DNA of 33,456 bases from a bacterium (GTDB lineage: Bacteria; JACRDZ01; JAQUKH01): positions 1 through 33,456 of the forward strand of contig JBFMCF010000003.1 of assembly GCA_040754625.1 (NCBI GenBank), given 5' to 3'. Every line of letters begins with the position of its first letter. Within the stretch, counting starts at the first letter, position 1. Positions 4,179 through 32,505 of this stretch are shown one piece after another. The notes under the pieces were generated by a model that searched no databases, was not told the origin of the DNA, and saw only the letters and a list, made by a program, of their open reading frames with translations. Position numbers and translations under genes: made by a program.

Positions 4179-7100
4179 GTGAAGCAGAAAAAAGGGTTTT
4201 CTTTTAAAACAGCAACTTTTGGTTTTTTTATATTTTTCTTTTGTTTTAAAAATGTTTCCTTTGCGTCTGATGAAGGTTTGATCCCTCCTTTTAGTTCCTA
4301 CGATGAAAAATCCCTGATGGATATTTCCGGCCGAAAATTAATACGTTTTACATTGGACGAAAAAAAATATTCGTCCCCTTACCAGGAGAACAAATATGGT
4401 TTTAATATCGACCAGGAACTGCAGGTGAGAATCCAGGGTGTCGCGCGCAGGAAACTGCATTTTGACATTGATTATGACGATACGCGCGAGGAAAAAAATA
4501 AAAACAGGATTTCGGCAATATATGTCGGGGATGATGATGAAATTGTCCAGAGGGCGGCTTTCGGCTACATACCTTTGAATATTTCCGAGACTGAATTTAT
4601 CTCTTATAATAAAACCACCTTCGGGTTTTACCTGGAAACCCAGTTTGATGCCGAAAAAACTCTGGAAGGTAAAAGAAAATATTCAGGGATAAACTACCCG
4701 GACCGCGCCCCTGAACCTGTTTACCCGAATTTAAAGATTAAAACGCTTGTGGCATTCAGTGAAACCCAAAGCGAAAGAAAAGAATTTTCGGGTGAATTTA
4801 AAAAAGCTGAAAATGATATTAAGGACATAGGATACATCAAGTCCCGCTATTTTCACGTCTATGATAATAAAAATGAACTTCCGGTGAGGGATGTCAGGAT
4901 TTATCTGGATGACCAAAATTCGTCCAATAATTACAATACAAATCGTTTTACCGCGGAAGGCACAAACGGAAGCCGTTATGAAGGTGAATTTGTTGAACTT
5001 CAAAACGGCAGTGAATGGACAATAGACGAGAAAACGGGCAGGATTAGTTTTTTTGTTCAAATCAAGGAAAATTATGTAATAGCGGCAAGTTATAACGATT
5101 CCAGCGGGAAAAGGTATGAGAAAAAAATAATAAGAGATGAAAATGACACAGGTTACTTCTGGCAGTACCGGGTGCAAAATATTTACTTTTTAGGCAGTAA
5201 AAATATCGACCCGAGATTTTTTACCATAAAAATTACGGATGTATTCGGGAGAGAGAAAGACCCCGCGACTTCAAGAGAGTACATCGATATCCTGAAGCTG
5301 GACAGTGATCCAAAAGACGGGAGGATAGACTCAAGGTGCATAGATTACGATTACGGCCTTTTGGTTTTTCAGGATGACCTGCCTTTCCAGGTTTTAAACC
5401 CGTCGGTTTATGAAAAATATCCCGTGCCTGAATTTACAATCCATGTAAGTTACAGGGCTTTTACTAAAGAATATTTTTTAAGGCCCGGTATAATTCCGGG
5501 AAGTGAAAAAGTTTACATCAGGGGAAAGCTCCTGAAAAGAACCGCGGATTATAATATTGATTATAATATCGGCCTGCTTTATTTTTTAATAAACATAGAA
5601 GAAGATGCTAAGATAATTGTGGATTATGAGTATTTCCCTTTTGGATTAAATTCCCAGACCACGATAACAGGTATGCGCGCGGAATATGAGCCCGCGGCGA
5701 ATTTAAGCATGGGTGCCACGTATATTATAGAAAAAGGGATTGAACGGAAGACCGGTTTCCAGCAGGCAAAAGAGAGTCCGGCCAAAGACACAATTTTAGG
5801 TGCGGATGCCAAAATAAAATTTAATATTGAAGATATGCAGGTAATCATTCTCGGGGAAATTGCCAAATCTTTTGTTGACCCAAATACCGGAAACAGGCTC
5901 TCAATAAACAACATGGAAGAAGATAAAGTATCTGATGAAATAACGACAAATACCGAAAAGTGGTCTGTAGTTTCCGGCATCCCGGCCGGAGAAGCGGCAA
6001 AAGGCGACATTTTGGAAATAAATGAAATAAATGTAGGGCATAACGAGGAAGAGAATGGAAAATCCCTGTTTATAAAAAACCAGGGAACGAACTGGGGAGG
6101 AACGATATATTCTTTTTCAAAAGAGGCATTGGATTTCAGCCGGCGGGAATTTATTGAAATCTGGATAAAGAGCGATACAAAAAGCGGGACATTAAATATA
6201 GATTTGGGAGAGATAAACGAAGATGCCGACAACGACGGTATTTTGGACACAGAAGATGAGGACGGAGACGGCAAATTAGGAAATGAAGAGGACACCGGTC
6301 TTTATTATTATGATGAAGTGGCTGGAAAAGACAACAAAAAACTTGATACAGAGGATCTGGACGGGGACGGTTTTTTGGAATCCAAAAACAATTATTTTAG
6401 TTTCCGGCTGGATCTCGCGGATTTTCCGGATAACATAAATCCGGAATGGGTTGGCAGGTCTGAAAACGGATGGACATTGTTGAATATTCCTTTAAGTTTA
6501 GCGCTGAAAACAGGCGCGGCCGACTGGCAGGTAATTAAGTATCTCAGGCTGTGGCTGAAAGGCCGGGGTGACGCAACAATAAATACATTTAAGGTTATTG
6601 GCCGGAGCTGGGACCCGGGTAAAGTTAAACTTGGCAATGGCACCGTGGAAGAAAATGAAAGGTTTGCCGTTCGTTTAAACAATGAGGGTGAAACGGGAAT
6701 CATATTGGACAACACGGAGTTAAATGACTATTTATATATTAATTACAGTTTATTGATGGAATATTCCCTGCGCTCAGGCGAAGAAGGATTTACTCAATGG
6801 AATTTTTCAGAATTGATGGATTTTTCATCTTACAGAATCCTGCATTTCTGGCTCAAACAGGATACCGGGCAGAACGCGGGGAACGAGGCCTTTTTCATAC
6901 GGCTCGGGGCAGATGAAGACAATTATTATGAATTTACTGTCCCGGTGAAAGATATTCCGAATAGCTGGTATAACGATGGATTTGACGTCGGGCTTTTTGA
7001 TGATGACGGGGACAAAATCCCGGACGGGTTAAAAAAAACAGGAAACCTTGTTTCTCTTTACAAAATAAAATTTATCCGTGCCGGTATCCGGAACTTTGAG

Positions 7101-8828
7101 TCTGATGTCCCTGAAAAAAGAAAAATTTACATGGATGAAATAATGTTAAGAGAAAGAATAAAAAAGAAAAGTGAGGCGAAAAAAGTCGCAGTGAAAGCGG
7201 AAATTAAAGATAAAATGGATTTCTATTTTGATTTCCGGCAGTGGGGCAGGGATTTTAAAACTATAGGCCGGGATATGGAAACCCAGGAAAGAAATATGAT
7301 GCGCGTGTCAGCCAATATAACCTATCTTGAATTTTTTCCTGTTACTTTGAATCTGGAAAATGAGGATAAATATCCCCGGGAGGACAAATATGGCGTATTG
7401 TCCCTGGAAGAAATTAATGACGCAAAAACCAGAAAAGACGGAGTATCCGCTGTTTTGAAACTGCCGGACAACCCAAGGTTCTTCTCGTTTAATTATGAAG
7501 ATAACGATGTAAAGGCGATAAGTTTACAGCGGAAAACGAACCAGGATATTTATACCTACGGTTTTGAATACAATGTTCCGGAGTATTCACTTGTTGACCG
7601 GTTAAAACTCAATCTCGGGTTAAAACGTTTTCGCGAGACACAGGATTATAATCTGGAGGGATTTTCCAGGTTTCTTAATTCTGATTCCCGTTCACTGGGA
7701 GTGGGGTATTCACCCGTAAAATATTTTGATATGGATTATTCATGGCGCAAGGTCAAAGAGGTAAACGAAAAAACCATCTGGTATCCGTTAAGCCGCGACC
7801 AGCGGGGGATAGTAAATATGGAGCCGTTCAGAAATTTAAATGGTCTTTATAACCGGTTTAGAAGTTCGGTTGATTATAAAGAAAGGTTTTTAAGCGGCAG
7901 TGAATCGGGTTTGAAAGACGCTAATGTTTCGGGAGAGGCGGAATGGCAGTTGGACGCGAAGCCGAGCAGGTGGTGGACGGGTATAAACCCTTTATCTGTC
8001 AACCAGACTATTCGTGTAACAAAATCCGCGATATTTGACAACATTAATAATGGGGCCGGGTTTTCCTCGCTTGTTAAAAAACTTAAGGCGGGAACAATTA
8101 CAGAACAGGACCTTGCGACTAAAGAAATTAACTCGGAAAATTATTACGCTCTCGGGTCCCGTTATAATCTGAGTCCCCCGCTTGTTGTTAACGCTCGGTA
8201 CAGCCTTCAGCGCGAGAAGCAGACGATTTTCGAAAGTATTTTCAACACACGGACCAGGGTTTCATCGGCAGGGCTGAATTACGATTTAAAAAGAGATTTA
8301 TTTTTCTTTGATAAAATTACGGAACACTCGAACCTGGACCTGAATTACACGCAAAAAAGAATTTTAAAAGAAGATATTTCCGAAAAAACCGTCTCAAACC
8401 CTTTTGTCTCATTATTAACCGGGTGGACGAGGCGATTTTCGACAAATTATTATTTCTCTTTCAGGGAGGAAAAGGAGAATGTCCACCGTGAAGTAAGGGT
8501 GAAAGAATTAAGGGTATATGAACCCAACCTGGAATTGATATACAAATTTGACCTGCCCGCAGTGCTTCGTTTTGCCAAAACAAGGATTGATTTTACAAAC
8601 CGCGCCAGGTGGCTGACAGGTATAAAAATGGAACTTACGAGCACAAAAAATTATCCTGAGTATGATTCAAGCAGAAAATACAATTATAAAACAAGGTTTG
8701 ATTATGACCTGACCGAATTTCTTTTATTCAGCCTTGATTTCCAGTATGAGGTTTTCAAAAACAAGTCCCAGCTTGAAAAAGATTACAATTTGTTTAAAGC
8801 CGCCAGCGAATGCGTGATTACATTTTAA
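4179..8828 (+). CDS. Giant SprA-like outer-membrane protein, candidate type IX translocon
   Basis: 1549 residues. The GTG start is fixed by a good signal peptide (KQKK, a Phe-rich core, cut near SFA/SD at about 29-31). Seen: long beta-rich repeats; aspartate-rich Ca2+-binding stretches at about 682-705, 722-740 and 938-952 (DADNDGILDTEDEDGDG and similar); a basic helix near 985-1000; then amphipathic strands to the final residues ECVITF, typical of outer-membrane barrels. Known of SprA: phrases such as 'FxEIWxKS...LNxDLGxINED' and 'FFIRLGxDxxNYYEF' are very similar to the periplasmic/plug region of Bacteroidota SprA, the T9SS translocon. The protein is shorter than Flavobacterium SprA (about 2400). 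Inference: a SprA-family translocon. The alternative is an unrelated giant surface barrel protein. It stands alone between mgtA and the toxin-antitoxin island. Confidence 0.65.
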   Translation: MKQKKGFSFKTATFGFFIFFFCFKNVSFASDEGLIPPFSSYDEKSLMDISGRKLIRFTLDEKKYSSPYQENKYGFNIDQELQVRIQGVARRKLHFDIDYDDTREEKNKNRISAIYVGDDDEIVQRAAFGYIPLNISETEFISYNKTTFGFYLETQFDAEKTLEGKRKYSGINYPDRAPEPVYPNLKIKTLVAFSETQSERKEFSGEFKKAENDIKDIGYIKSRYFHVYDNKNELPVRDVRIYLDDQNSSNNYNTNRFTAEGTNGSRYEGEFVELQNGSEWTIDEKTGRISFFVQIKENYVIAASYNDSSGKRYEKKIIRDENDTGYFWQYRVQNIYFLGSKNIDPRFFTIKITDVFGREKDPATSREYIDILKLDSDPKDGRIDSRCIDYDYGLLVFQDDLPFQVLNPSVYEKYPVPEFTIHVSYRAFTKEYFLRPGIIPGSEKVYIRGKLLKRTADYNIDYNIGLLYFLINIEEDAKIIVDYEYFPFGLNSQTTITGMRAEYEPAANLSMGATYIIEKGIERKTGFQQAKESPAKDTILGADAKIKFNIEDMQVIILGEIAKSFVDPNTGNRLSINNMEEDKVSDEITTNTEKWSVVSGIPAGEAAKGDILEINEINVGHNEEENGKSLFIKNQGTNWGGTIYSFSKEALDFSRREFIEIWIKSDTKSGTLNIDLGEINEDADNDGILDTEDEDGDGKLGNEEDTGLYYYDEVAGKDNKKLDTEDLDGDGFLESKNNYFSFRLDLADFPDNINPEWVGRSENGWTLLNIPLSLALKTGAADWQVIKYLRLWLKGRGDATINTFKVIGRSWDPGKVKLGNGTVEENERFAVRLNNEGETGIILDNTELNDYLYINYSLLMEYSLRSGEEGFTQWNFSELMDFSSYRILHFWLKQDTGQNAGNEAFFIRLGADEDNYYEFTVPVKDIPNSWYNDGFDVGLFDDDGDKIPDGLKKTGNLVSLYKIKFIRAGIRNFESDVPEKRKIYMDEIMLRERIKKKSEAKKVAVKAEIKDKMDFYFDFRQWGRDFKTIGRDMETQERNMMRVSANITYLEFFPVTLNLENEDKYPREDKYGVLSLEEINDAKTRKDGVSAVLKLPDNPRFFSFNYEDNDVKAISLQRKTNQDIYTYGFEYNVPEYSLVDRLKLNLGLKRFRETQDYNLEGFSRFLNSDSRSLGVGYSPVKYFDMDYSWRKVKEVNEKTIWYPLSRDQRGIVNMEPFRNLNGLYNRFRSSVDYKERFLSGSESGLKDANVSGEAEWQLDAKPSRWWTGINPLSVNQTIRVTKSAIFDNINNGAGFSSLVKKLKAGTITEQDLATKEINSENYYALGSRYNLSPPLVVNARYSLQREKQTIFESIFNTRTRVSSAGLNYDLKRDLFFFDKITEHSNLDLNYTQKRILKEDISEKTVSNPFVSLLTGWTRRFSTNYYFSFREEKENVHREVRVKELRVYEPNLELIYKFDLPAVLRFAKTRIDFTNRARWLTGIKMELTSTKNYPEYDSSRKYNYKTRFDYDLTEFLLFSLDFQYEVFKNKSQLEKDYNLFKAASECVITF

Positions 8829-9115: not shown

Positions 9116-9403
9116 ATGATTAATGAAGTTATGACTGCTGAGCAGTTGGCTAAATATTTGCAATTAGATGAGCAGACGGTTTATCGTAAAGCGCGTGTTG
9201 GCCAGATTCCTGCTGTGCGTATTGGGAAGATTTTAAGATTCAAGAAAGATGTGATCGATGGATGGTTGCGATTGTCTTCTTTTAAGTGGTCATCCGCTAA
9301 AAGAGAAGAATTAAGAAAATGGGGAGAAAATTATGCTAAAGCCAGTGGGTTGAAAGAAGAAGACGTCCAAAAAGCCATTAATAAGAAGAGATACGGCAAA
9401 TGA
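9116..9403 (+). CDS. Excisionase-family HTH protein, probable antitoxin of the PIN toxin
   Basis: 95 residues. Residues 5-52 form a MerR/excisionase-type winged helix (HTH_17 style): MTAEQLAKYL, then DEQTVYRKARVGQIPAVRIGK and LRFKKDVIDGWL. A charged helical tail (about 55-95) ends in KAINKKRYGK. ATG 9116 lies 8 bases after AAGGAGG, and the stop overlaps the PIN gene start as ATGA, so the two are translationally coupled. Known: such small HTH proteins often precede PIN-domain ribonuclease toxins. Inference: the HTH binds the operon's own promoter and the tail neutralises the toxin. Phage-type excisionase is less likely, because no integrase is nearby. Confidence 0.75.
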   Translation: MINEVMTAEQLAKYLQLDEQTVYRKARVGQIPAVRIGKILRFKKDVIDGWLRLSSFKWSSAKREELRKWGENYAKASGLKEEDVQKAINKKRYGK

Positions 9404-9834
9404 TTAAGGTCGTTCTCGATACGAATATTTTTATCTCAAGTATTTTCTGGAAAGGCAATCCTCGCCGTATTATTGATTTAGCTGTAACAAATAAAATTAA
9501 ATCTGTAACCTCGCCGGATATTCTTCATGAAATAGAAACAGTCTTATTTGAAGATTTCCCAGAAATACCTTATGAAAAAATAGAAGAAATTATCAAAGAT
9601 ATACTTAGTTACTCATATTTGGCGGCAGTCGATGAAATTATCGTTAAAGATCTGCGGGACATTAAAGATACTAAAATTATCTCTTGCGCTGTAAGCGCGA
9701 AAGCGGATTATTTAGTTACCGGAGATAAAGACCTTCTTATTTTAAAAGAATACAAGGGTATAAAGATTTTAAATTCAAAAGCTTTTCTTAATTTATTTGA
9801 AGGGTGGGATTCGGCCACCCATCCTGAGAAGTGA
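9400..9834 (+). CDS. PIN-domain ribonuclease toxin (VapC-like)
   Basis: 144 residues, a complete PIN domain of the 'putative toxin, PIN family' (COG1569/TIGR00305) type. The acidic metal-binding residues are visible: Asp in VVLDTNIFIS at the N-terminus, Glu in DILHEIETVL, Asp in DIKDTKIIS, and Asp in VTGDKDLL. It would cleave RNA in the cytoplasm when free of its partner. It overlaps the upstream HTH gene by 4 bases. The last residues (EGWDSATHPEK) extend beyond the usual domain end and are encoded by a small hairpin repeat (9802-9820), so the original C-terminus may have been altered. Confidence 0.88.
   Translation: MIKVVLDTNIFISSIFWKGNPRRIIDLAVTNKIKSVTSPDILHEIETVLFEDFPEIPYEKIEEIIKDILSYSYLAAVDEIIVKDLRDIKDTKIISCAVSAKADYLVTGDKDLLILKEYKGIKILNSKAFLNLFEGWDSATHPEK
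9802..9820. repeat. Hairpin at the 3' end of the PIN gene
   Basis: GGGTGG, a 7-base loop, then CCACCC; a second pair, ATCCT (9821-9825) with AGGAT (9843-9847), follows at once. No T-run follows, so it is not a clear terminator. It may be part of a dispersed intergenic repeat that now supplies the last PIN codons. Confidence 0.4.
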
Positions 9835-16747: not shown

Positions 16748-17668
16748 TTAAAATCTTATACTGAGGGAAACACGGTGGCTGTCTTCCAGTATTTCATGGC
16801 GGGCGTAAGCGTAATTGATTTCATAAGCCTCTTTTTTAAATCCAAGCCCGGCGGTTATTTCATTTGTGTCAGTTGTATAACCTCCTCTCAGGGAAATCAA
16901 TCTGGCGATTATGTATTCAATCCCGATATGTTCTTTTAAATCCCGTTTTTTAATTAAATCTAAACCCAGTGAAAAGGTAAATTTATCAGGGATTGTATAA
17001 GCGGCACCTGTATTGAGTTTTACAGAAACGGAATCGGATACTTCTTTAAGTTTTATTTTCGGCTGGATTATATTTTGAAGCACTAATCCAAACCGGAAAT
17101 TCCGCCAGTAATAGAGAGAACCGATATCGGCCCCGAAACCGGAATCTGAATATGTATATATTTTCTGCGATATCATTTTGAACGTAAGCCCCAAATCAGT
17201 ATTTGATATAAGCCCGTTAATTCCGTAGGACAAAAGAAAAGCCATATCGCGGTTTTTGAAATTTTCGCCTGTCGGCAAGGCCTGTTCGTTGTATCCTGTT
17301 ATCCCGTTTACGGAGGAAATGATTGCATTCAGGCCTACGGCGGTTTGCAGTTTATCATAACCATAATTTACATTGAAAGGCCACGCGAAAGCAATATTTT
17401 CATTTTGAAGACCTTCCACCATGCTGAATGGTTTATTATACATAAACATAATTTCTTTTTTATGAAGCTGTGCCAGCCCCGCGGGATTCCAATACGACGC
17501 GCTTGCATCGTCAGCTATGGCGGTAAACGCTTTTCCCATGCCGAGGGCGCGGACACTCTGCCCGATTTTTAAAAAAGCGGCCGCGTCGCCCGCGTCCTGG
17601 GATTCAGCAAGAACTATAGGGCTTATAAGACATATAAGACTTATTAAAATAAAAAATTTGTTTTTCAT
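16748..17668 (-). CDS. PorV/PorQ-family outer-membrane protein
   Basis: 306 residues. Signal peptide (MKNKFFILISLICLISPIVLA), then the family opening 'AAAFLKIGQSVRALGMGKAFTAIADDASASYWNPAGLAQL', which is the signature of PorV/PorQ (UPF0164) barrels, a FadL-related fold. The final strand ends SHRVSLSIRF, an aromatic C-terminus typical of BAM substrates. In T9SS, PorV is the shuttle that takes cargo from the SprA/Sov translocon. Here its start overlaps the stop of the FnIII protease by 4 bases, so the two are co-translated. PorV-like proteins also occur where T9SS is unproven, so the role is an inference. Confidence 0.85.
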   Translation of the reverse strand: MKNKFFILISLICLISPIVLAESQDAGDAAAFLKIGQSVRALGMGKAFTAIADDASASYWNPAGLAQLHKKEIMFMYNKPFSMVEGLQNENIAFAWPFNVNYGYDKLQTAVGLNAIISSVNGITGYNEQALPTGENFKNRDMAFLLSYGINGLISNTDLGLTFKMISQKIYTYSDSGFGADIGSLYYWRNFRFGLVLQNIIQPKIKLKEVSDSVSVKLNTGAAYTIPDKFTFSLGLDLIKKRDLKEHIGIEYIIARLISLRGGYTTDTNEITAGLGFKKEAYEINYAYARHEILEDSHRVSLSIRF

Positions 17669-20460
17669 TTAATCACCGCGATTTTTCCGGTCCGGTCCTT
17701 TTTAGACATGTTGTCATTAGCTTCGACAATAAAAATGTACACACCGCTTGAGACCTGGCGGCCTTTGCCGTTTTTCCCGTCCCAGTAATAATCATAAACA
17801 GGGACATTAGCGACGGGCTGGCTGTTGTTATTGTCAGCTAAAACATTATTTATTTTTAAAACAAGTTCGCCTGCGATGTCAAAAATGTAAAGGGTCGCTT
17901 CGATACCGGAGGTGTTTTCTAATTGATACCTTATGGTGGTGTTTCCCGAATATGTGGGATTTGGATAGTTAAACGCTTTAAGTGTTACACTTGCCTGTGT
18001 ACGGCTGCCGGTGTCGGGCTCTGAATAATTTCCTGTTGTATCAAGCGAAATCGCCGTATAGTAATATGTTTGACCGACAATTATATTGTTGTTATCTATC
18101 AGGGTAGAATCAGTCCCTTCATAAATACCTGTGCCGTCGTTTACATCAGCCGGGTGTGAAATTTCTTTCCTCCTGATAAATATTTTTTTAAGATCCGCGA
18201 CTGTCGGGTTTTTCCAGTTAAGGAATATTTGATTGTTTACCCCGACTGCCTTGAAATTTGTCGGCGGCGGCGAAAAATCATCTTTTGCCTGTACGGGGCC
18301 TGTGGTATCGGAATAAGAATAGTTGGGATGTTCATCCTCAGCCCGGACATAGTAATAATAATCAGTATAGTTTGCCGCGGTTGTATCGTGAAAAATTATG
18401 TTCCCCGCGTCTATCACACTCGCGGTTTGAAAAGGGCCCGCGAGGTTTGTCGCCCTGAAGATAGTATAATTTTTAACATCATTGGCCCCGGTTCCGTCAT
18501 CGGTTGATTTTGTCCACGTTACATCAATACTGCCTCCTTCATCTTTAGGTGTATCTATGGCCTTGACATTTGCAGGAGCGCCCGGCGGCAGATTATCTAT
18601 CGCAATGGCCGTGGATTCAATCTCTGCTGTTGTTTCATAATTAAACCATTTGTCCCTGGGCCGTATCTTGTAGTAAAAGTTTGTTTTGTTTTTTGGAACA
18701 ATATTAGTAGTAGTGTAGGTCACGGAACCATTTGGATTGACGCTATTGACGAGCGCGAATCCTGTGCCTGATGATGTGCTTCGAAAAATGTCGTAACTTT
18801 CCACATCCGTAGTATCATTCGGCGATGCGGACCATGTAAGCGAAATAATAAAACCCTGGTCAGCGGGCACATCGGATACGGTCAGGGCGGGTACAATCGC
18901 GGGTGCTGTGGTATCATTGGAAAAACCGTATCTATATGGAAATTTTGTTAAATCAGACCTTAAATGAGCGGTCTCATAGATACCCGGGATTAGAATTACC
19001 GTGTCAAAAGATGAATTAATAGTTATCCCCCCCGCATTTTGCGCGTCCAGCGTAATAGCCGTGTCTGTATAGGTGGTCCCGAATTTTGTTAATACAGATG
19101 CGTTCCATGTAAGGTTGCCGGAAGATGATTCACTGCCGTCAAACATTATCCTTATACTTGTCCCGCTTTTGTTAAAAAGAAGATAATTTGATCCAAGGTG
19201 TCCCGGTATTTTCCCGGTGGAGGGAGTTGTTGCCGGGGCGGACATATAATCGGATGTAGTATTGTATATGTATAAAGTGTCATAAAGAGCGCCGTCGTCA
19301 TAATGTGTTCCGTCATCATTTTTCCCTGTGATATAATTCCACACGGTAAATTTCGCGAAAGCGGAGGATAGATTACTGCTTTTGGTCCTGAGCCTGGTGT
19401 CAAGGATGTTGAAAACATTCGGGCTTGTAACAGATTTGGCATCTTCAAAAAAATTTTTCAGGATACCGGAGAAATTTTTTTCGAGAAAAATAGGCCAGAT
19501 CCCGCTGCCGTATTTATGAATATTTGATGTTGTGTCAAAATCTAAAGGTATTTCAGGCTGGGAGAACCATCTAAATTCTCCTTTTATATAGCGGTTGATA
19601 TAATCGTTAATGTTAGGATAAACCTGGTCCTCAAACCATACAGCCGAAGCTTCCAAAAACCACTCGTCCACGTTTTGATTATAGCTGAACTGGATTGCGT
19701 GAAAAAATTCATGGGCCGCCGTTATCCTGGCAAAATTTTCGGGGCTTTGACTTGTATCAAACTGGGCAGTTGAATTGAATTGCCCTGACGCAGTAGCATA
19801 ATCATTATCCATAACAATAAAACTGTATTTTATATAGTCATTACCTCCCGCTGGCCGGTTCTCGGGTTGTGTCCATCCGAAGGTACCGGGAAAGTTTTCT
19901 CCGAGGTCAATCAGGTAAACGTCGTATTTGGAATCACCGCCGTTGTCGTCCGCGGACCTTTCCGATAAATTAGCATAATCATCAGGAGGGGGGCTGAAGC
20001 CCTTATTTGTAACCCCGGCGGCATAACTTGATTCGAATGCCTCTGCAACTATTTTTATGAAGCTTTCCGTTGAAGCATCTTTACCGTCTGAAGTATAGAA
20101 AATTTTAAAATGGGTGGTGTCAAAAGAGGCATAAGTAGTATTATAAGCCACATTAATAACAAGATTGTCATCATTTATTTTTTGATAAAGAGGGTCAGTC
20201 GGCCTTAAAAGAACCGGTTTCAGTAAATCTTGCGTGGAAGATGAAAGTTTATTCCAGTTTTTATTTACTTTATTTAAAAACATAGTCATATCAACGTTGT
20301 TTTTTAAAGATTTGGGCGGTGTTTTTCCATAGGAAAGATAAGGTTTTGAAGTCAGGGTGCGCCATTCTTTTAATATTTCACTTTCAATATTTTCATTCGC
20401 GTAAATGGCGGTTAAAGGTAAAATAATAATTAAAAAAAACAAACAAATATGTTTTCTCAT
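17665..20460 (-). CDS. Secreted zinc metalloprotease-like protein with FnIII repeats and T9SS-type C-terminal domain
   Basis: 931 residues, resembling the 'MXAN_6640 family putative metalloprotease'. Signal peptide (MRKHICLFFLIIILPLTAIYA). The metzincin-like site is H250-E-F-F-H254 in 'AAHEFFHAIQF', with a likely third ligand Glu in 'WFLEASAVWFED' about 15 residues on. Three fibronectin III-like domains follow at about 530-625, 630-730 and 735-835. The last ~90 residues (NYPNP...TTIRYQL...DIAGELV...WDGKN...SSGVYIF...GKIAVIK) match the FlgD-Ig/T9SS type A sorting domain. Inference: a surface or secreted protease delivered by a type IX-like route. The promoter is 8 bases before the start codon, and PorV follows with a 4-base overlap. 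Confidence 0.85.
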   Translation of the reverse strand: MRKHICLFFLIIILPLTAIYANENIESEILKEWRTLTSKPYLSYGKTPPKSLKNNVDMTMFLNKVNKNWNKLSSSTQDLLKPVLLRPTDPLYQKINDDNLVINVAYNTTYASFDTTHFKIFYTSDGKDASTESFIKIVAEAFESSYAAGVTNKGFSPPPDDYANLSERSADDNGGDSKYDVYLIDLGENFPGTFGWTQPENRPAGGNDYIKYSFIVMDNDYATASGQFNSTAQFDTSQSPENFARITAAHEFFHAIQFSYNQNVDEWFLEASAVWFEDQVYPNINDYINRYIKGEFRWFSQPEIPLDFDTTSNIHKYGSGIWPIFLEKNFSGILKNFFEDAKSVTSPNVFNILDTRLRTKSSNLSSAFAKFTVWNYITGKNDDGTHYDDGALYDTLYIYNTTSDYMSAPATTPSTGKIPGHLGSNYLLFNKSGTSIRIMFDGSESSSGNLTWNASVLTKFGTTYTDTAITLDAQNAGGITINSSFDTVILIPGIYETAHLRSDLTKFPYRYGFSNDTTAPAIVPALTVSDVPADQGFIISLTWSASPNDTTDVESYDIFRSTSSGTGFALVNSVNPNGSVTYTTTNIVPKNKTNFYYKIRPRDKWFNYETTAEIESTAIAIDNLPPGAPANVKAIDTPKDEGGSIDVTWTKSTDDGTGANDVKNYTIFRATNLAGPFQTASVIDAGNIIFHDTTAANYTDYYYYVRAEDEHPNYSYSDTTGPVQAKDDFSPPPTNFKAVGVNNQIFLNWKNPTVADLKKIFIRRKEISHPADVNDGTGIYEGTDSTLIDNNNIIVGQTYYYTAISLDTTGNYSEPDTGSRTQASVTLKAFNYPNPTYSGNTTIRYQLENTSGIEATLYIFDIAGELVLKINNVLADNNNSQPVANVPVYDYYWDGKNGKGRQVSSGVYIFIVEANDNMSKKDRTGKIAVIK

Positions 20461-20732: not shown

Positions 20733-21713
20733 ATGAAAAAGTTTTTAATTTTTATAGCGTTAGTTTTGTTGGTTGCTTCAAGCAGTTCATATGCGGCGAT
20801 GTCAAACTTTGTAACATACACCGCGGAAGGAGCTGGAATTAGTATTGATGCCCTTGGGATAGGTGATTATACGACAGGGACTTTACAGGCGGAAATACCT
20901 GTTGGCGCTGAGATTTACCGCGCCTATCTTTATTCCGCAAGCGTATGGTCAAGCGGACTTTCAAATGTTGAATTTCAAGGCGGCACTTTAATCTCAAATG
21001 CCTCCAGCAGGCTTGACACGGGAGCCAAAAATGCAAATTCCGCCAGTGAAAACAGGTGGGATGTTACTTCACAAGTCACATCATTAGTCGGAGGTGGAAG
21101 CGGTACTTTTAATTTCAATGTTAAAGAACTGGGTTATCTTGACGGAGAAATTTTAGCGGTTGTGTATAAAGTAGCCGGCAACCCTGTTAATACGGCATTT
21201 ATTTTCGATGGTGAATTGTCAACAAGCGGAGACAGTTTTAATGTTAACCTGACTACTCCATATTCAACAACTGACACTGCTATTATGTCGCTTGGTATTT
21301 CCTATGGTTATCAGGGATATGGAGATCAATATACACAAGTTGATATTAATGGGACCCGTTTAACAACCAGCGCCGGAGGAAACGAAGATGGCGGTGAGGT
21401 TGCACAAAATGGGTATTTAATTACAGCTGGTGGTGTTGGGGACAGCATTGCTAATCCTGCCAATCCTTACGCTACTCCGCCTTATCATGGGCATTATGAC
21501 GATGAATTATACAACATTGGGACTTTATTATCAAATGGGACTAATGTAATTACACTAAGCACGCTTAATCCGTCAGCCGATGATAATGTGTTTTTTATGG
21601 GGCTTACGGTTAGGGGAGAAGCTGTAGTTCCACAGATTCCGGAACCAGGTACGATGATGCTTCTGGGCTCATTGTTAATGGGTATGGTCGGGTTGAAAAA
21701 AGTAAGAAATTAA
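20733..21713 (+). CDS. PEP-CTERM sorting-domain protein
   Basis: 326 residues. Signal peptide (MKKFLIFIALVLLVASSSSYA, cut near 21), a beta-rich body with no domain I recognise (about 22-295), then the sorting signal: IPEPG, a hydrophobic stretch, and a basic end KKVRN. The IPEPG motif marks it for an exosortase (XrtA type) that would process it at the inner membrane for export to the surface or matrix. No exosortase is in this window. ATG 20733 is preceded by a purine-rich AAAGGGGGTGA. Expression is probably controlled in the leader (see terminator). A terminator follows the gene, so it is monocistronic. Confidence 0.9.
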   Translation: MKKFLIFIALVLLVASSSSYAAMSNFVTYTAEGAGISIDALGIGDYTTGTLQAEIPVGAEIYRAYLYSASVWSSGLSNVEFQGGTLISNASSRLDTGAKNANSASENRWDVTSQVTSLVGGGSGTFNFNVKELGYLDGEILAVVYKVAGNPVNTAFIFDGELSTSGDSFNVNLTTPYSTTDTAIMSLGISYGYQGYGDQYTQVDINGTRLTTSAGGNEDGGEVAQNGYLITAGGVGDSIANPANPYATPPYHGHYDDELYNIGTLLSNGTNVITLSTLNPSADDNVFFMGLTVRGEAVVPQIPEPGTMMLLGSLLMGMVGLKKVRN

Positions 21714-21843: not shown

Positions 21844-23691
21844 ATGTACAACGGAAAGCGGTTTCTAATTATAATATCGATTCTATCTGTTATTTTCATA
21901 CGTTCAAACCCTGTGACAGCGGTTAAAATCGAAAATTTTGATATTGGGCAGGATACCGCTGTCATAAAAGGATTTATGTTTGAAAAAGACCTTGTTCCTG
22001 ACAGGAATAAAGTTTTTTCAGAAATAATCCAGCTTATAAACTCAGGAAAATATGAAGAAGCTGTTAAAAAAACAAACGAAATTATTAAAAATAACCCCGG
22101 TTTGCCCCAGGCCCACGAGATACTCGGAACAGCCTTGATCCTGAAAGGTGATATTGATAAAGGATTAATTTCTTTAAAGAAGGCGGTTGAACTGGACCCG
22201 AAACAGGGTTTTGTTTATACTAAAATCGGCAATGTTTATATGATGAAAAAAGATTACGGGAAAGCGAAAAAGGAATTCTTGACCGCCCTTGAAATAAACA
22301 ATAATGATAGAAGGGCGCATCAATGGCTGGGTATTGTATATGAAAAAGAGGGGGAATTTAATAAGGCGGTGGAGCATTATGAAAAAGGCTTAACAGGAGA
22401 AATGCCGGGGAACATTGAAATAAAGGTCAACATATCCCGCTTGTATAATCTTTCATCCAGGTTTTCCGAAAGTGTGAAACTTCTTGAAGGTTTAATAGAT
22501 AAAAACAATAAAGATGTTACCGCGCACATTGTGCTGGGCAACGCTTATCTTGGCTTAAACAGATTGGATAAGGCTGTCGGGGAGTTTAATATTGTGCGCA
22601 GTCTTGAACCTGATACCGAAAGGGCTGCTTTACTTTTAGGTATAGCATACAGGGAAAAAGGGGATTTAAACGAATCCGTAAAAGAGCTGGAAAAAGTCAT
22701 AAAAATTAAGCCTAAAGAGTCGGTCGGTTATTATCAAATTGGAGAAACTTTGCTTAAAATGGGGCAATATGACCGGGCAATTGATAATTATAATATAGCA
22801 AAAGGATTTAATCCTAAACCGGATTTTATCAAGAAAAGAATTGCTGAAATCTATTTGTTCCAGAAAAAATACCCTGAGGCGATAAAAATATGCAAGGCAT
22901 TATCTGAATCCAAAAATGCCGATGCAGATATTTATTCACTTCTTGCGGCAGCATATCAACTGAATAAACAGCTTGATCTGGCGGAAAACACTTTAAAATC
23001 CATGACAGCTAAATTCCCGGGAAATGCCTTTTCTTTTTACAGCCTGGGATTATTTTACAGCCAGACTGGAAAATACAGCCAGGCAATTGAAAAATACAAT
23101 AAAGCGCTTTTAATTTCCCCCGGCGATGTTAAAATTCTAAGGGTCCTGGCCCTTGCCCATGACCAGGCAGGCAATAAAGAAAAAGCAATTGAAATTACAA
23201 AAAATATTATAGCTATTCAAGCTGATAATAATGTTGATAAGTTTTATCTTGCAACACTTTATGACACTGACTCTAAATATGAAAAAGCAAAAGAACTTTA
23301 CAGGGAAGTCATCGCCAAACAACCCGACCATCCTTTTGCGTTAAACAATCTTGCGGTTATACTTTCCAGCGAAGGTAATTTTGAGGAGGCAATTAAACTA
23401 TCCAAAAAAGCAATTTCACTTGATCCTAAAAGCGGGATTATTTCCGATACACTGGGCTGGATTTATTTTAAGCAGAATAAAATAAAAGAATCTCTTGAAC
23501 TGCTTAAAAAATCAGCTTCTTTAACCAGTCACCCGACTGTATTTTTTCACCTTGGCATGGCTTATTATAAAAACAATCAATCAAAAGAAGCGCTGGAACA
23601 GTTTCAAAAATCAATTAAATTATCGGACAAATTTCCCGAGTATAAAGAATCGAAATCAATGGTGGAAAAATTATCCTCCCGGTCAAAATAA
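21844..23691 (+). CDS. Exported tetratricopeptide-repeat protein
   Basis: 615 residues. An N-terminal signal peptide or anchor (about 6-24, FLIIISILSVIFI) is followed by about fifteen TPR units from about 55 to the end; the repeats show the usual G/Y-A-P spacing (for example 'GKYEEAVKKTNEIIKNNPG', 'GDIDKGLISLKKAVELDP'). No catalytic domain is present, so it is a protein-protein scaffold, most likely facing the periplasm. PEP-CTERM/exosortase loci often carry a large TPR protein; this one is shorter and has no lipobox, so a link to the upstream PEP-CTERM gene is only suggested by position. It has its own promoter; a GAAGG lies about 9 bases before the ATG. Confidence 0.85.
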   Translation: MYNGKRFLIIISILSVIFIRSNPVTAVKIENFDIGQDTAVIKGFMFEKDLVPDRNKVFSEIIQLINSGKYEEAVKKTNEIIKNNPGLPQAHEILGTALILKGDIDKGLISLKKAVELDPKQGFVYTKIGNVYMMKKDYGKAKKEFLTALEINNNDRRAHQWLGIVYEKEGEFNKAVEHYEKGLTGEMPGNIEIKVNISRLYNLSSRFSESVKLLEGLIDKNNKDVTAHIVLGNAYLGLNRLDKAVGEFNIVRSLEPDTERAALLLGIAYREKGDLNESVKELEKVIKIKPKESVGYYQIGETLLKMGQYDRAIDNYNIAKGFNPKPDFIKKRIAEIYLFQKKYPEAIKICKALSESKNADADIYSLLAAAYQLNKQLDLAENTLKSMTAKFPGNAFSFYSLGLFYSQTGKYSQAIEKYNKALLISPGDVKILRVLALAHDQAGNKEKAIEITKNIIAIQADNNVDKFYLATLYDTDSKYEKAKELYREVIAKQPDHPFALNNLAVILSSEGNFEEAIKLSKKAISLDPKSGIISDTLGWIYFKQNKIKESLELLKKSASLTSHPTVFFHLGMAYYKNNQSKEALEQFQKSIKLSDKFPEYKESKSMVEKLSSRSK

Positions 23692-29232: not shown

Positions 29233-30969
29233 ATGCGTACAATATTAGTTATTTTTTTTATAATTTTAGCCTTATTTTCTTCTACTTACGCCTTTACCTC
29301 AACAAACTTAAACGGGCAGGAAATCAATTCGGAAGAAGATATTTACCGGTTTTACCATGAAGGGTTGATAGAATATTTTGACTACCTGCGTCTTTTGGAC
29401 ATCTTTGAAAATAAGATTGATATTAATCAGGCGGGCATTGAGGATTTGCTGGATTTGCCGGGCATTGACATAAAAACAGCCGAAAGAATTATAGAATACC
29501 GTGAAAAATCAGGGGACTTTTCCAAAATTTTCGACCTTCAAAAAGTCCCATTATTATCAAAAGATGTTTATAAAAATATCAGAAACTTTGTTGATATATT
29601 TCCTTTAAAAGAGGGCGGTTTAGTCCGCGTTAAACTCGAAGAAGACCCTCTTGATGATGAAGGGCTTTATGTTTATCACAGGCTCCGGTATCAAACGCCC
29701 TGGTTCGGTTTTGGATATATTTTGGAAAGGGACGAGGAGGTTGATAATTATTCGATAGAAAACGGAAATCCAAAAAAGCAGGACGAGGAAATCAAATTCC
29801 GTTTAAAAAAGAAATATGTTTTACTTAAGGATTTTTTTGGCATAAAGAATATTACAGCGGGTGATTACACACTTAGATTCGGGAAGGGTTTGGTCATTGG
29901 GAATTCTTACAGCAGAAATAGAATCGGGATATTGCCGGACCTTTCCCTGTATGATAAATTTTTTGGGACCGCCCTGGAATTAAAAATAAATTGTGTTACA
30001 TTAACCCCTTTTTATTCAAAAAACAAGCTTAATAATAATGGTTTCCCGGATGTTTACCAGGAAGAAATAAAAGGATTAAATACAATATTTGATGTGACGA
30101 AATATTTTAATTTAGGAGGAACGTATTATAAATCCGGAATAAAAAAGGATTTCGATTTTAATCTAAACGGCTATCCGGACGGTAATGAGGCGGAAGTTTC
30201 AGGCATGGATTTTTCTTACAGGTATGGATCCTTTAGATTTTCAGGGGAAACAGCTAAAGTTAAAGGAAAAGGCGGCGGCAAATATATGGAATTATATTAT
30301 GATTTAAAAAAAGTTTTTTCTCTAATCTCTTTTCGCGATTACGCGCCGGATTTTTATAATCCCCACAGCCAGTCTTTCTCCCAGGAAGATGATGAGCCTG
30401 ATGACAGGGATGAAAGGGGATTTTATTTTGAATCAAATTTCAAATTCAGAAGGGACTTTACTATTAGAACATCTTTTGACCAATGGTCCCATCCTGGAAG
30501 AAAAATAACGGACAGGGAATTGACCGGGCAGATAAGTTATTATCCCGTATCATTTTTACGTTTATGGTTAAAACGCAGGATTAGAGGCGAAGATTTGTAC
30601 GGACAAGAAGATAAGGGAATAAAAGATTATATAGACGGAAGATTTTACATATGGAGAAAATTTGAACTGGATGTTTTTTACGGACAAAATGAAAATAAAG
30701 AATTTGGAAGTGAAAATATTGTTGATAATTTTTGGGGAACAGAAGTAAAATTAGAGAGTGATAAAAATATTTTTCTTATACGGGCAAAATTTAATGACGA
30801 TAATATTACTATCGCGGGGGATAAAAAAAGAGAATACTATTTTTACGCGAAATTAAGAGAAATCAAACAAGTTACATTAAGTTTTAGTTTTAGAGCCGTG
30901 CATTCGAGTGAAGATATTTTCCCGAATCCCGAGGAGATATACAGAATAGTTTTTGATTGTGTCTGGTAA
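29233..30969 (+). CDS. Exported helix-hairpin-helix protein with a predicted beta-barrel
   Basis: 578 residues. Signal peptide (about 1-20, RTILVIFFIILALFSSTYA). Residues about 55-115 form a ComEA-type helix-hairpin-helix pair: 'IDINQAGIEDLLDLPGIDIKTAERIIEYREKSGDF', 'DLQKVPLLSKDVYKNI'. The remainder (about 130-578) is rich in alternating aromatic strands ('YVYHRLRYQTPWFGFGYILERDE', 'YTLRFGKGLVIG', 'FRFSGETAKVKG') and ends VFDCVW, like an outer-membrane barrel. Similar HHH-plus-barrel proteins are found in Bacteroidota/Chlorobiota-type genomes; their function is not established to my knowledge. ComEA homology suggests DNA binding outside the cytoplasm, perhaps at uptake, but that is inference. 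No Shine-Dalgarno is visible; the start follows repeat copy 1. Confidence 0.72.
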   Translation: MRTILVIFFIILALFSSTYAFTSTNLNGQEINSEEDIYRFYHEGLIEYFDYLRLLDIFENKIDINQAGIEDLLDLPGIDIKTAERIIEYREKSGDFSKIFDLQKVPLLSKDVYKNIRNFVDIFPLKEGGLVRVKLEEDPLDDEGLYVYHRLRYQTPWFGFGYILERDEEVDNYSIENGNPKKQDEEIKFRLKKKYVLLKDFFGIKNITAGDYTLRFGKGLVIGNSYSRNRIGILPDLSLYDKFFGTALELKINCVTLTPFYSKNKLNNNGFPDVYQEEIKGLNTIFDVTKYFNLGGTYYKSGIKKDFDFNLNGYPDGNEAEVSGMDFSYRYGSFRFSGETAKVKGKGGGKYMELYYDLKKVFSLISFRDYAPDFYNPHSQSFSQEDDEPDDRDERGFYFESNFKFRRDFTIRTSFDQWSHPGRKITDRELTGQISYYPVSFLRLWLKRRIRGEDLYGQEDKGIKDYIDGRFYIWRKFELDVFYGQNENKEFGSENIVDNFWGTEVKLESDKNIFLIRAKFNDDNITIAGDKKREYYFYAKLREIKQVTLSFSFRAVHSSEDIFPNPEEIYRIVFDCVW

Positions 30970-31062: not shown

Positions 31063-31698
31063 ATGAATTATACAGAATTTAAAAACAAATTTCAGGGACT
31101 GCCTGTTATTTTGAGCAGAGAAGTTGAAAAGCAGGGAAAAGACAGGCAGGTCGTTCGTAATCAGCTTAACCGCTGGCAGGATAAGGAATTAATTATCAAG
31201 TTGAAGCGGGGGATGTATCTTTTGAATGAAAATGACAGGAAGATCAATCCCAGCCGCAGTTTTATTGCCAATCAGCTGTTTTGGCCTTCATATGTAAGCC
31301 TGGAATACGCGCTTGGTTTCTATGGGTTAATTCCGGAAAAAGCCGTGGATGTAACCTCGGTTACCACAAAAAAAACGTACTGTCTTGAAAATGGATTCGG
31401 CCGGTTTGTTTATCAGCACATTAAACCTTCGGGATTCAGAGGTTTCAGGAGCGTGAAAGAGGAAGGCGGGATTTCATTTTTTATCGCCGAACCCGAGAAG
31501 GCGGTAGTTGATTTTTTATATCTAAATCTCAGAAAATTCGCGCGTTCTTCAGGCGATGTGTTCAGAGATTCTTACCGTTTTCAGAATCTGGGCATATTGA
31601 GAAAAAGAAGGATTATTGAACTGGCGCGGCTTTTTGGAAATAATGGCTTAACAAAAGCTGTGCGTGAATTTTGTGATTTCATAAAAGAGGAAAATTAA
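31063..31698 (+). CDS. AbiEi-family antitoxin (type IV toxin-antitoxin)
   Basis: 211 residues. The N-terminal winged-helix part (about 1-60: 'FKNKFQGLPVILSREVEK', 'NQLNRWQDKELIIKLKRGMYLLNE') precedes the AbiEi core ('SFIANQLFWPSYVSLEYALGFYGLIPE', 'DVTSVTTKKTY', 'FFIAEPEKAVVDFLYL'). Known: AbiEi neutralises the AbiEii nucleotidyltransferase without direct complex formation and represses the operon; the pair can act in abortive phage infection. The toxin starts 3 bases downstream. It has its own promoter and a palindromic operator candidate. The weak AGGGA lies about 9 bases before the ATG. Confidence 0.88.
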   Translation: MNYTEFKNKFQGLPVILSREVEKQGKDRQVVRNQLNRWQDKELIIKLKRGMYLLNENDRKINPSRSFIANQLFWPSYVSLEYALGFYGLIPEKAVDVTSVTTKKTYCLENGFGRFVYQHIKPSGFRGFRSVKEEGGISFFIAEPEKAVVDFLYLNLRKFARSSGDVFRDSYRFQNLGILRKRRIIELARLFGNNGLTKAVREFCDFIKEEN

Positions 31699-31701
31699 AA
31701 A

Positions 31702-32505
31702 ATGATCGAAATTATTAAACAACAGTTTAGCCAAAATATGTCAACTGAAGAAAAAACCAACAGGGCGCGTGAATTTCTGCAAATTGCAGCTTTAAAGATT
31801 ATTTATGAAAAAAAGTTATTTGACAATATTACTTTTACGGGCGGCACATCTTTAAGAGTTTTGTTTAACCTGAGGCGTTTTTCAGAAGACCTTGATTTTT
31901 CGCTGTCCAAAAAGAAGGGGTATGATTTTGCTGTATTAAACTCGGAGCTTATTAACGGATTTAGCCTCCAGGGTTTGAAAGTGGAATCCTCGTTTAATGA
32001 AGAAAAAACTGTTCACAGTGCTATGTTTAAATTTACCGGATTGCTGAAAGATCTGGGGCTTTCTCCGCTGAAAGAACAAAAATTATCTATTAAAATTGAA
32101 GTTGATTCAAATCCGCCTGATGGGGGGCATATCCAGAATACTTTTGTGAATAAAATCTATCTTTTTAATGTGGCGCATTTTGATTTGCCGTCAATGTTAG
32201 CGACCAAACTGCATGCCTGTTTTTACAGAAAATTCACCAAAGGAAGAGATTTTTACGACTTTTTTTGGTATTTAGGAAATAAAATTAAGCCGAACTTCAC
32301 GCTGTTTAACAATGCTGTGTTGCAGACCGAAGGCTATAATCCGGAAATTGACGAGGGTAGTTTTAAAAAATTTCTTATGGAAAATATTGAAAAAGTGGAT
32401 TTTGATAAAGCCAAAAAAGATGTGGTGAGGTTTTTGGAAGATAAGTCTGAAATAAATCTTTTTGATTTAAAAGTACTCAAAAGTGCCATTGAATCAGTAT
32501 GGTAA
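31702..32505 (+). CDS. AbiEii/AbiGii-family nucleotidyltransferase toxin
   Basis: 267 residues. DNA polymerase beta-like nucleotidyltransferase: 'FTGGTSLRVLFNLRRFSEDLDFSL' holds the GGT(S/A)LR and DLDF catalytic motifs, and 'MLATKLHACFYRKFTKGRDFYDFFWYL' is the conserved second block (K...RDxYD). Such toxins transfer nucleotides to RNA (tRNA in studied relatives) or bind GTP, halting growth. It is full length and directly follows the AbiEi antitoxin, so the system looks intact. A palindromic repeat starts 9 bases after its stop. Confidence 0.92.
   Translation: MIEIIKQQFSQNMSTEEKTNRAREFLQIAALKIIYEKKLFDNITFTGGTSLRVLFNLRRFSEDLDFSLSKKKGYDFAVLNSELINGFSLQGLKVESSFNEEKTVHSAMFKFTGLLKDLGLSPLKEQKLSIKIEVDSNPPDGGHIQNTFVNKIYLFNVAHFDLPSMLATKLHACFYRKFTKGRDFYDFFWYLGNKIKPNFTLFNNAVLQTEGYNPEIDEGSFKKFLMENIEKVDFDKAKKDVVRFLEDKSEINLFDLKVLKSAIESVW

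Follow-up and report, generated by a model that had tools for sequence, protein, structure and literature searches.

The stretch of DNA analyzed here (the window; 33,456 bases, the entire contig C3 of a 2.75-Mb genome in 138 contigs that is 98.3% complete and 0.05% contaminated) probably encodes a SprA-family outer-membrane translocon for the export of proteins with a type IX-like domain at their C terminus. SprA/Sov is the giant outer-membrane channel of the type IX secretion system (T9SS) of Bacteroidota, and the window genome does not belong to Bacteroidota. The observations behind this reading are homology to SprA, a matching predicted fold, genes for PorV-family barrels paired with genes for sorting-domain proteins, and no detectable GldL, GldM, or GldN. 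The T9SS, thought to be confined to one bacterial group, thereby looks older, wider-spread, and differently powered. The channel gene and its features are as follows.

4179..8828 (stop included), + strand: SprA-family outer-membrane channel protein of 1549 aa, from the open reading frame, TIGR04189, a family profile against 6h3i, and a structure match.
4179..4268, + strand: Sec-type signal peptide region (residues 1–30), with the SprA body directly after it, from the sequence.
6213..6377, + strand: Asp-rich, Ca2+-binding-like loops (residues 679–733) in the soluble insert, from invariant columns (alignments A1 and A3) and the profile alignment to 6h3i.
8784..8825, + strand: C-terminal strand ending in Phe, from F1549 in relatives and the modeled strand.

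The reading frame has a GTG start and zero internal stops. A preliminary description of this DNA had listed a signal peptide, a beta-rich body, Asp-rich repeats, and a C-terminal strand with a terminal Phe, and all of these are present: the N terminus is hydrophobic and signal-peptide-like (MKQKKGFSFKTATFGFFIFFFCFKNVSFASDEG), the body is long and beta-rich, and the chain ends in ...ASECVITF, with the terminal Phe (F1549) found in at least 90% of 38 relatives. A C-terminal strand with a terminal Phe is typical of BAM-inserted barrels. Promoter and terminator scans around sprA gave scores no better than shuffles, and an mgtA–sprA operon (26-base gap) was dropped because a different gene precedes sprA in a second species of the genus (hereafter the sister species).

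The main idea of the preliminary description, a SprA relative working outside Bacteroidota, is supported, and neither of the two results named there as refuting it turned up: a SprA HMM hits the protein significantly, and the predicted fold resembles solved SprA ahead of all else. The NCBIfam model of SprA/Sov (TIGR04189) matched the protein in four stretches with 99 bits (E 1.2e-28); since this is below the equivalog cut-off of 200 bits, we file the protein, by its sequence score, as a SprA relative rather than as a SprA equivalog of the Bacteroidota type. None of the Pfam families scored above its own cut-off on it. The sister species has a homolog of equal length that is 75% identical, and another genus of the phylum has one with 32% identity across ∼1000 residues. 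Profiles were needed for wider searches, as a single-sequence scan of genome contigs with the window SprA gave no matches and phmmer with the single protein found no SprA in the PDB. A profile of 16 relatives (A1) matched the PDB entries of Flavobacterium johnsoniae SprA (6h3i and others related to it) in an alignment spanning SprA residues 38–2375 (E 1e-209), and a narrower profile of five sequences, none from Bacteroidota (A2), also reached SprA in the PDB (E 2.5e-17). As judged from these alignments, homology to SprA is significant across nearly the whole SprA length.

Structure prediction, which had been suggested as a check, also pointed to SprA before anything else. Two overlapping parts of the protein, residues 32–1231 and 390–1549, were modeled with AlphaFold2 using 38 homologs (mean pLDDT of 78.1 and 77.5, respectively; pTM 0.50–0.57). 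The best Foldseek matches of both models were the four SprA chains in the PDB (8gl6, 8gl8, 6h3i, and 6h3j), with E-values of 3.8e-55 to 5.1e-39 for the first model and 2.4e-47 to 1.0e-35 for the second; the next matches followed at 6.3e-8 and 2.8e-5. The TM-score against the SprA chains was ∼0.5 by query length and the rmsd 13–15 Å, in line with the divergence, flexibility, and partial coverage of the models. The partial models thus support a SprA-like global fold, strand number aside. In both models, a smaller portion is similar to carbohydrate-binding modules of family 11.

The protein is shorter than the Bacteroidota channel, as had been proposed: it has 1549 residues versus 2403, and this compact channel, ∼850 residues shorter than the SprA studied so far, may be of use for structural work. 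Part of the difference lies at the N terminus. In a comparison of 57 SprA proteins, the window SprA had 78 residues ahead of the conserved Gln of the first barrel block, versus ∼200 in long SprAs; the number of residues before the first conserved block was 78–87 in the window phylum, ∼180–230 in many other lineages, and 206 in the Bacteroidota-like control genome G206. Relative to long SprAs, the proteins of the window and its phylum are missing ∼110–130 N-terminal residues. In F. johnsoniae, the SprA N terminus lies folded within SkpA and connects the channel with the periplasmic assembly (PMC10994853); by the length comparison, the window SprA does not carry this extension.

The Asp-rich repeats (residues ∼679–733: INEDADNDGILDTEDEDGDGKLGNEEDTG ... 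KLDTEDLDGDG) had been described as Ca2+ loops in the plug region, a placement that the analysis did not support. The loops align to SprA residues ∼1020–1190, in the soluble insert, where F. johnsoniae SprA keeps SED, DVGLDG, and DVEDINRD; an insert with Asp-rich motifs is therefore common to both proteins. The F. johnsoniae “Plug” is a separate protein. Across 38 relatives, E681, D682, E692, D693, D705, D723, E725, and D726 are invariant or near-invariant. Because relatives and F. johnsoniae SprA keep the aligned motifs, we read the loops as an inherited, family-wide trait and not as a special plug. They probably bind Ca2+ and probably make the soluble insert stiffer.

The strongest functional evidence comes from genes of the same window that encode a PorV-family barrel and a sorting-domain protein; the features found there are as follows.

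17665..20460, − strand: candidate cargo, a 931-aa metalloprotease of the MXAN_6640 family with a signal peptide and a C-terminal type IX sorting domain, from NF045524, TIGR04183, and FlgD_ig.
17668..17967, − strand: C-terminal sorting domain of this cargo (residues 832–931), NYPNP ... YIFDIAGELV ... WDGKNGKGRQVSSGVYIFIVEA ... GKIAVIK.
16748..17668, − strand: PorV/PorQ-family barrel of 306 aa, candidate shuttle for the cargo, from NF033709.

The cargo scored 187.5 bits against NF045524 (cut-off 140), and its last 100 residues scored 23.3 bits against TIGR04183 (cut-off 23); the FlgD_ig score was 27.5 bits. The barrel scored 134.5 bits against NF033709 (cut-off 90), and the start codon of its gene overlaps the stop of the cargo gene. 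Both proteins are kept in the sister species (70% identity for the cargo and 78.8% for the barrel), and the barrel is 38.7% identical in G002, a member of the window phylum. Elsewhere in the genome, two further sorting-domain genes, for an M6 metalloprotease (contig C78) and a lamin-tail-domain protein (contig C17), each have a PorV-family gene immediately downstream, which scores 173.4 bits on C78 and a weak 47.2 bits on C17 against the NF033709 cut-off of 90; there are also several weaker PorV-family paralogs. All three cargo–PorV pairs recur in the sister species (G001), and one type recurs in G002. Two of the cargo proteins were visible at E ≤ 0.001 and the third through its pairing with a PorV-family gene. 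Two loci exceeded the TIGR04183 cut-off in the genome search with marginal scores, sorting-domain scores lying near the cut-off throughout (21.7 to 28.2 bits vs. 23, varying by search), and the third sorting domain was recognized only as FlgD_ig-like. Some other SprA-positive genomes have 64–150 cargo genes. The TIGR04183 model also matches in Deinobacterium chartae, one of the control genomes. The preliminary description missed the PorV-family and cargo genes in the window, their one-to-one pairing, and the scarcity of GldM among SprA-bearing genomes.

These pairs combine traits of two known pathways. The type A pathway of P. gingivalis and F. johnsoniae also joins a Por_Secre_tail/FlgD_ig sorting domain with a PorV-family barrel, and PorV caps the lateral SprA gate and is the carrier of type A cargo (PMC10994853). 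In F. johnsoniae, one PorV serves all type A cargo, and type B cargo proteins have their own downstream SprF (PMC12618676). Here, a PorV-family gene lies directly downstream from each sorting-domain gene; this arrangement, with dedicated PorV genes for cargo with type A-like tails, thus differs from that of F. johnsoniae. The gene order, cargo and then its own shuttle barrel, is that of type B SprB–SprF, but the shuttle here is of the PorV family (NF033709) and weakly PorP/SprF-like (TIGR03519, 27 bits of 90.55), and the C-terminal domain is type A-like.

The preliminary description had also suggested a look for porL, porM, and porN homologs in the genome, and none were found. Models of GldM (TIGR03517), GldL (TIGR03513), and GldN (TIGR03523) had no match at E ≤ 0.001 in 22 genomes (G000–G003 and 18 others), of which 20 were SprA-positive by TIGR04189, including the window genome (98% complete, rounded); in the same set, PorV_fam was found in 22/22 and TIGR04183 in 20/22. 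In the control genomes G065 and G206, all three models scored strongly, and by these three models we found no likeness here to the GldLM/PorLM motor and GldKN/PorKN ring. Across 290 genomes, TIGR04189 was found in 116 and GldM in two, with both together only in G206. The simpler channel, with its short N terminus, and the missing energy chain fit together. The other control, G065, has genes for GldL, GldM, GldN, and a GldK-like protein (locus L187) and no TIGR04189 or PorU match; it is either the reverse case, a motor without SprA, or a genome in which sprA was missed.

An ordinary T9SS, complete with a PorLM-type motor and a PorKN-type ring that have diverged too far for the models, would account for the SprA, PorV-family, and sorting-domain genes, and the window genome even encodes a C25 peptidase with a PorU-like region (NF033707, 235 bits of 420). 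We nevertheless consider such a hidden machine unlikely. In the genomes searched, matches to the GldM, GldL, and GldN models were either strong (106–394 bits; G065 and G206) or absent at E ≤ 0.001, with no intermediates, and the N-terminal segment through which F. johnsoniae SprA is linked to SkpA and SprE (PMC10994853) is largely missing here. The C25 peptidase was not counted as PorU because it has no sorting domain, its locus is exosortase/polysaccharide-like, and the sister species (G001) has no strong counterpart.

Relatives of the window SprA are widespread. A profile-guided scan yielded 80 named loci from phyla including Elusimicrobiota (with Endomicrobia), Aerophobota, Lindowbacteria, Firestonebacteria, Fermentibacteria, Cloacimonadota, Zixibacteria, WOR-3, TA06, and Poribacteria. 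The window phylum, with four genomes in the sample, is distinct from those of G206, Candidatus Endomicrobiellum (G059, locus L107), and Lindowbacteria (G032, locus L130). The GldLMN-bearing G206 shares only the domain with the window genome, in keeping with the non-Bacteroidota host first proposed. Published papers confine the T9SS to the FCB group; the SprA relatives described here, in Elusimicrobiota, Aerophobota, Lindowbacteria, and others, speak against this. Among open-licence PMC papers, we found none that describes SprA in Elusimicrobiota or Aerophobota.

The neighborhoods of these loci show recurrent partners. Genes for lptF/lptG-family permeases lie beside sprA in 39 of the compared loci (L037, L039, L047, L049, L062, L068, L070, and others up to L133), mostly divergently and as the next one or two genes; they come from Elusimicrobiota, Fermentibacteria, Firestonebacteria, Lindowbacteria, and several further phyla, and Pfam LptF_LptG was confirmed for two of the 39. 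In 32 loci, sprA is followed by a gene for a comF-like phosphoribosyltransferase. This lptF/lptG and comF-like neighborhood was not seen in the window. At L107, the 1.3-Mb genome of Candidatus Endomicrobiellum agilis (G059) encodes a 1766-aa SprA and has no TIGR04183 match and weak PorV matches only.

Such a retained SprA in so small a genome, together with the lptF/lptG neighbors in several phyla, could mean that the SprA-fold channel serves mainly outer-membrane biogenesis or lipid/LPS traffic, the pairs of sorting-domain and PorV genes being coincidental or secondary. This seems improbable to us for the window genome, where lptFG are not adjacent to sprA and three conserved cargo–PorV operons are found. 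PorV-family matches occurred in all SprA-positive genomes tested, and G003, a SprA-less member of the window phylum (78% complete), has no TIGR04183 match and weak PorV matches.

A tree of SprA was built on profile columns with a quick method; several deep forks have low support, and the window pair and locus L063 form long branches. In this tree, the window protein groups with the sister species, the phylum member L063, and Lindowbacteria, and sits beside its own phylum member G002. The set is nested in a clade of 32 rows with good support, whose other members come mainly from Aerophobota, Firestonebacteria, and Elusimicrobiota; Cloacimonadota, Zixibacteria, and the Bacteroidota control fall outside it. 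Because rows mostly sort by phylum, the tree fits vertical descent, with the deep forks being weak. A functionless relic or a recently transferred sprA, which the sub-cut-off TIGR04189 score and the few cargo genes might suggest, is highly improbable given the intact 1549-codon frame, its full-length, 75% identical counterpart in the sister species, the conserved start-to-Phe architecture, and the position of the window protein beside G002 among rows that mostly group by phylum.

Under the favored reading, an exporting SprA-family translocon, the tail-bearing proteases would cross the inner membrane by Sec. The C-terminal domain of a cargo protein would then enter the SprA cavity and bind loops on the PorV-family barrel paired with that cargo, which would be docked at the lateral gate; cargo and shuttle would exit sideways together. 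SprF keeps type B cargo on the cell surface, and the shuttle here may hold its cargo there in the same way. In F. johnsoniae, the substrate loads without energy, and release needs the motor and SprE (PMC10994853); organisms with no such motor would therefore release passively or by another motor. With no recognizable PorLM-type motor or GldN ring in the window genome, release may thus be unpowered, or a different motor of the envelope, for example a TolQR/ExbBD-type complex, may drive it.

A broader proposal, which we put forward tentatively as possible though short of probable, is that this is an ancient, widespread type 9-like translocon, in which SprA works with PorV shuttles matched one-to-one with cargo and with no PorLM motor, in many phyla beyond Bacteroidota and the FCB group; the motor, the ring, and the N-terminal SkpA coupling of Bacteroidota might then be later additions. 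The finding of the channel together with shuttle and cargo, and with GldL, GldM, and GldN undetected, makes two questions testable: the role of the motor in transport and the order in which the machine was assembled.

Several other genes and loci deserve mention. A PEP-CTERM protein (20733–21713, + strand; TIGR02595 18.6 bits, cut-off 16) adjoins the cargo–PorV pair of the window. A TPR protein (21844–23691) was not claimed as an SprE/PorW analog because its best family is PEP-CTERM PrsT. The C25 peptidase with the PorU-like region lies in an exosortase/polysaccharide-like cluster on contig C122 (locus L169). An HTH and PIN-domain pair (9116–9834, + strand) lies between sprA and the MBL/radical SAM/ApbE genes, which come directly after sprA in the sister species. 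A 578-aa protein (29233–30969, + strand) carries a signal peptide and ComEA-like helix-hairpin-helix repeats; its long C-terminal part is barrel-like and has Trp as the last residue, and it is possibly a DNA-binding outer-membrane protein. The window also encodes an AbiEi/AbiEii-type toxin–antitoxin pair (31063–32505, + strand). Finally, in five Endomicrobia loci (L101, L102, L106, L108, and L111), a PorV-family barrel fusion protein is encoded directly before sprA; that of L101 has 583 aa, with a PorV-family barrel (60 bits) fused to a long C-terminal part that seems rich in repeats.
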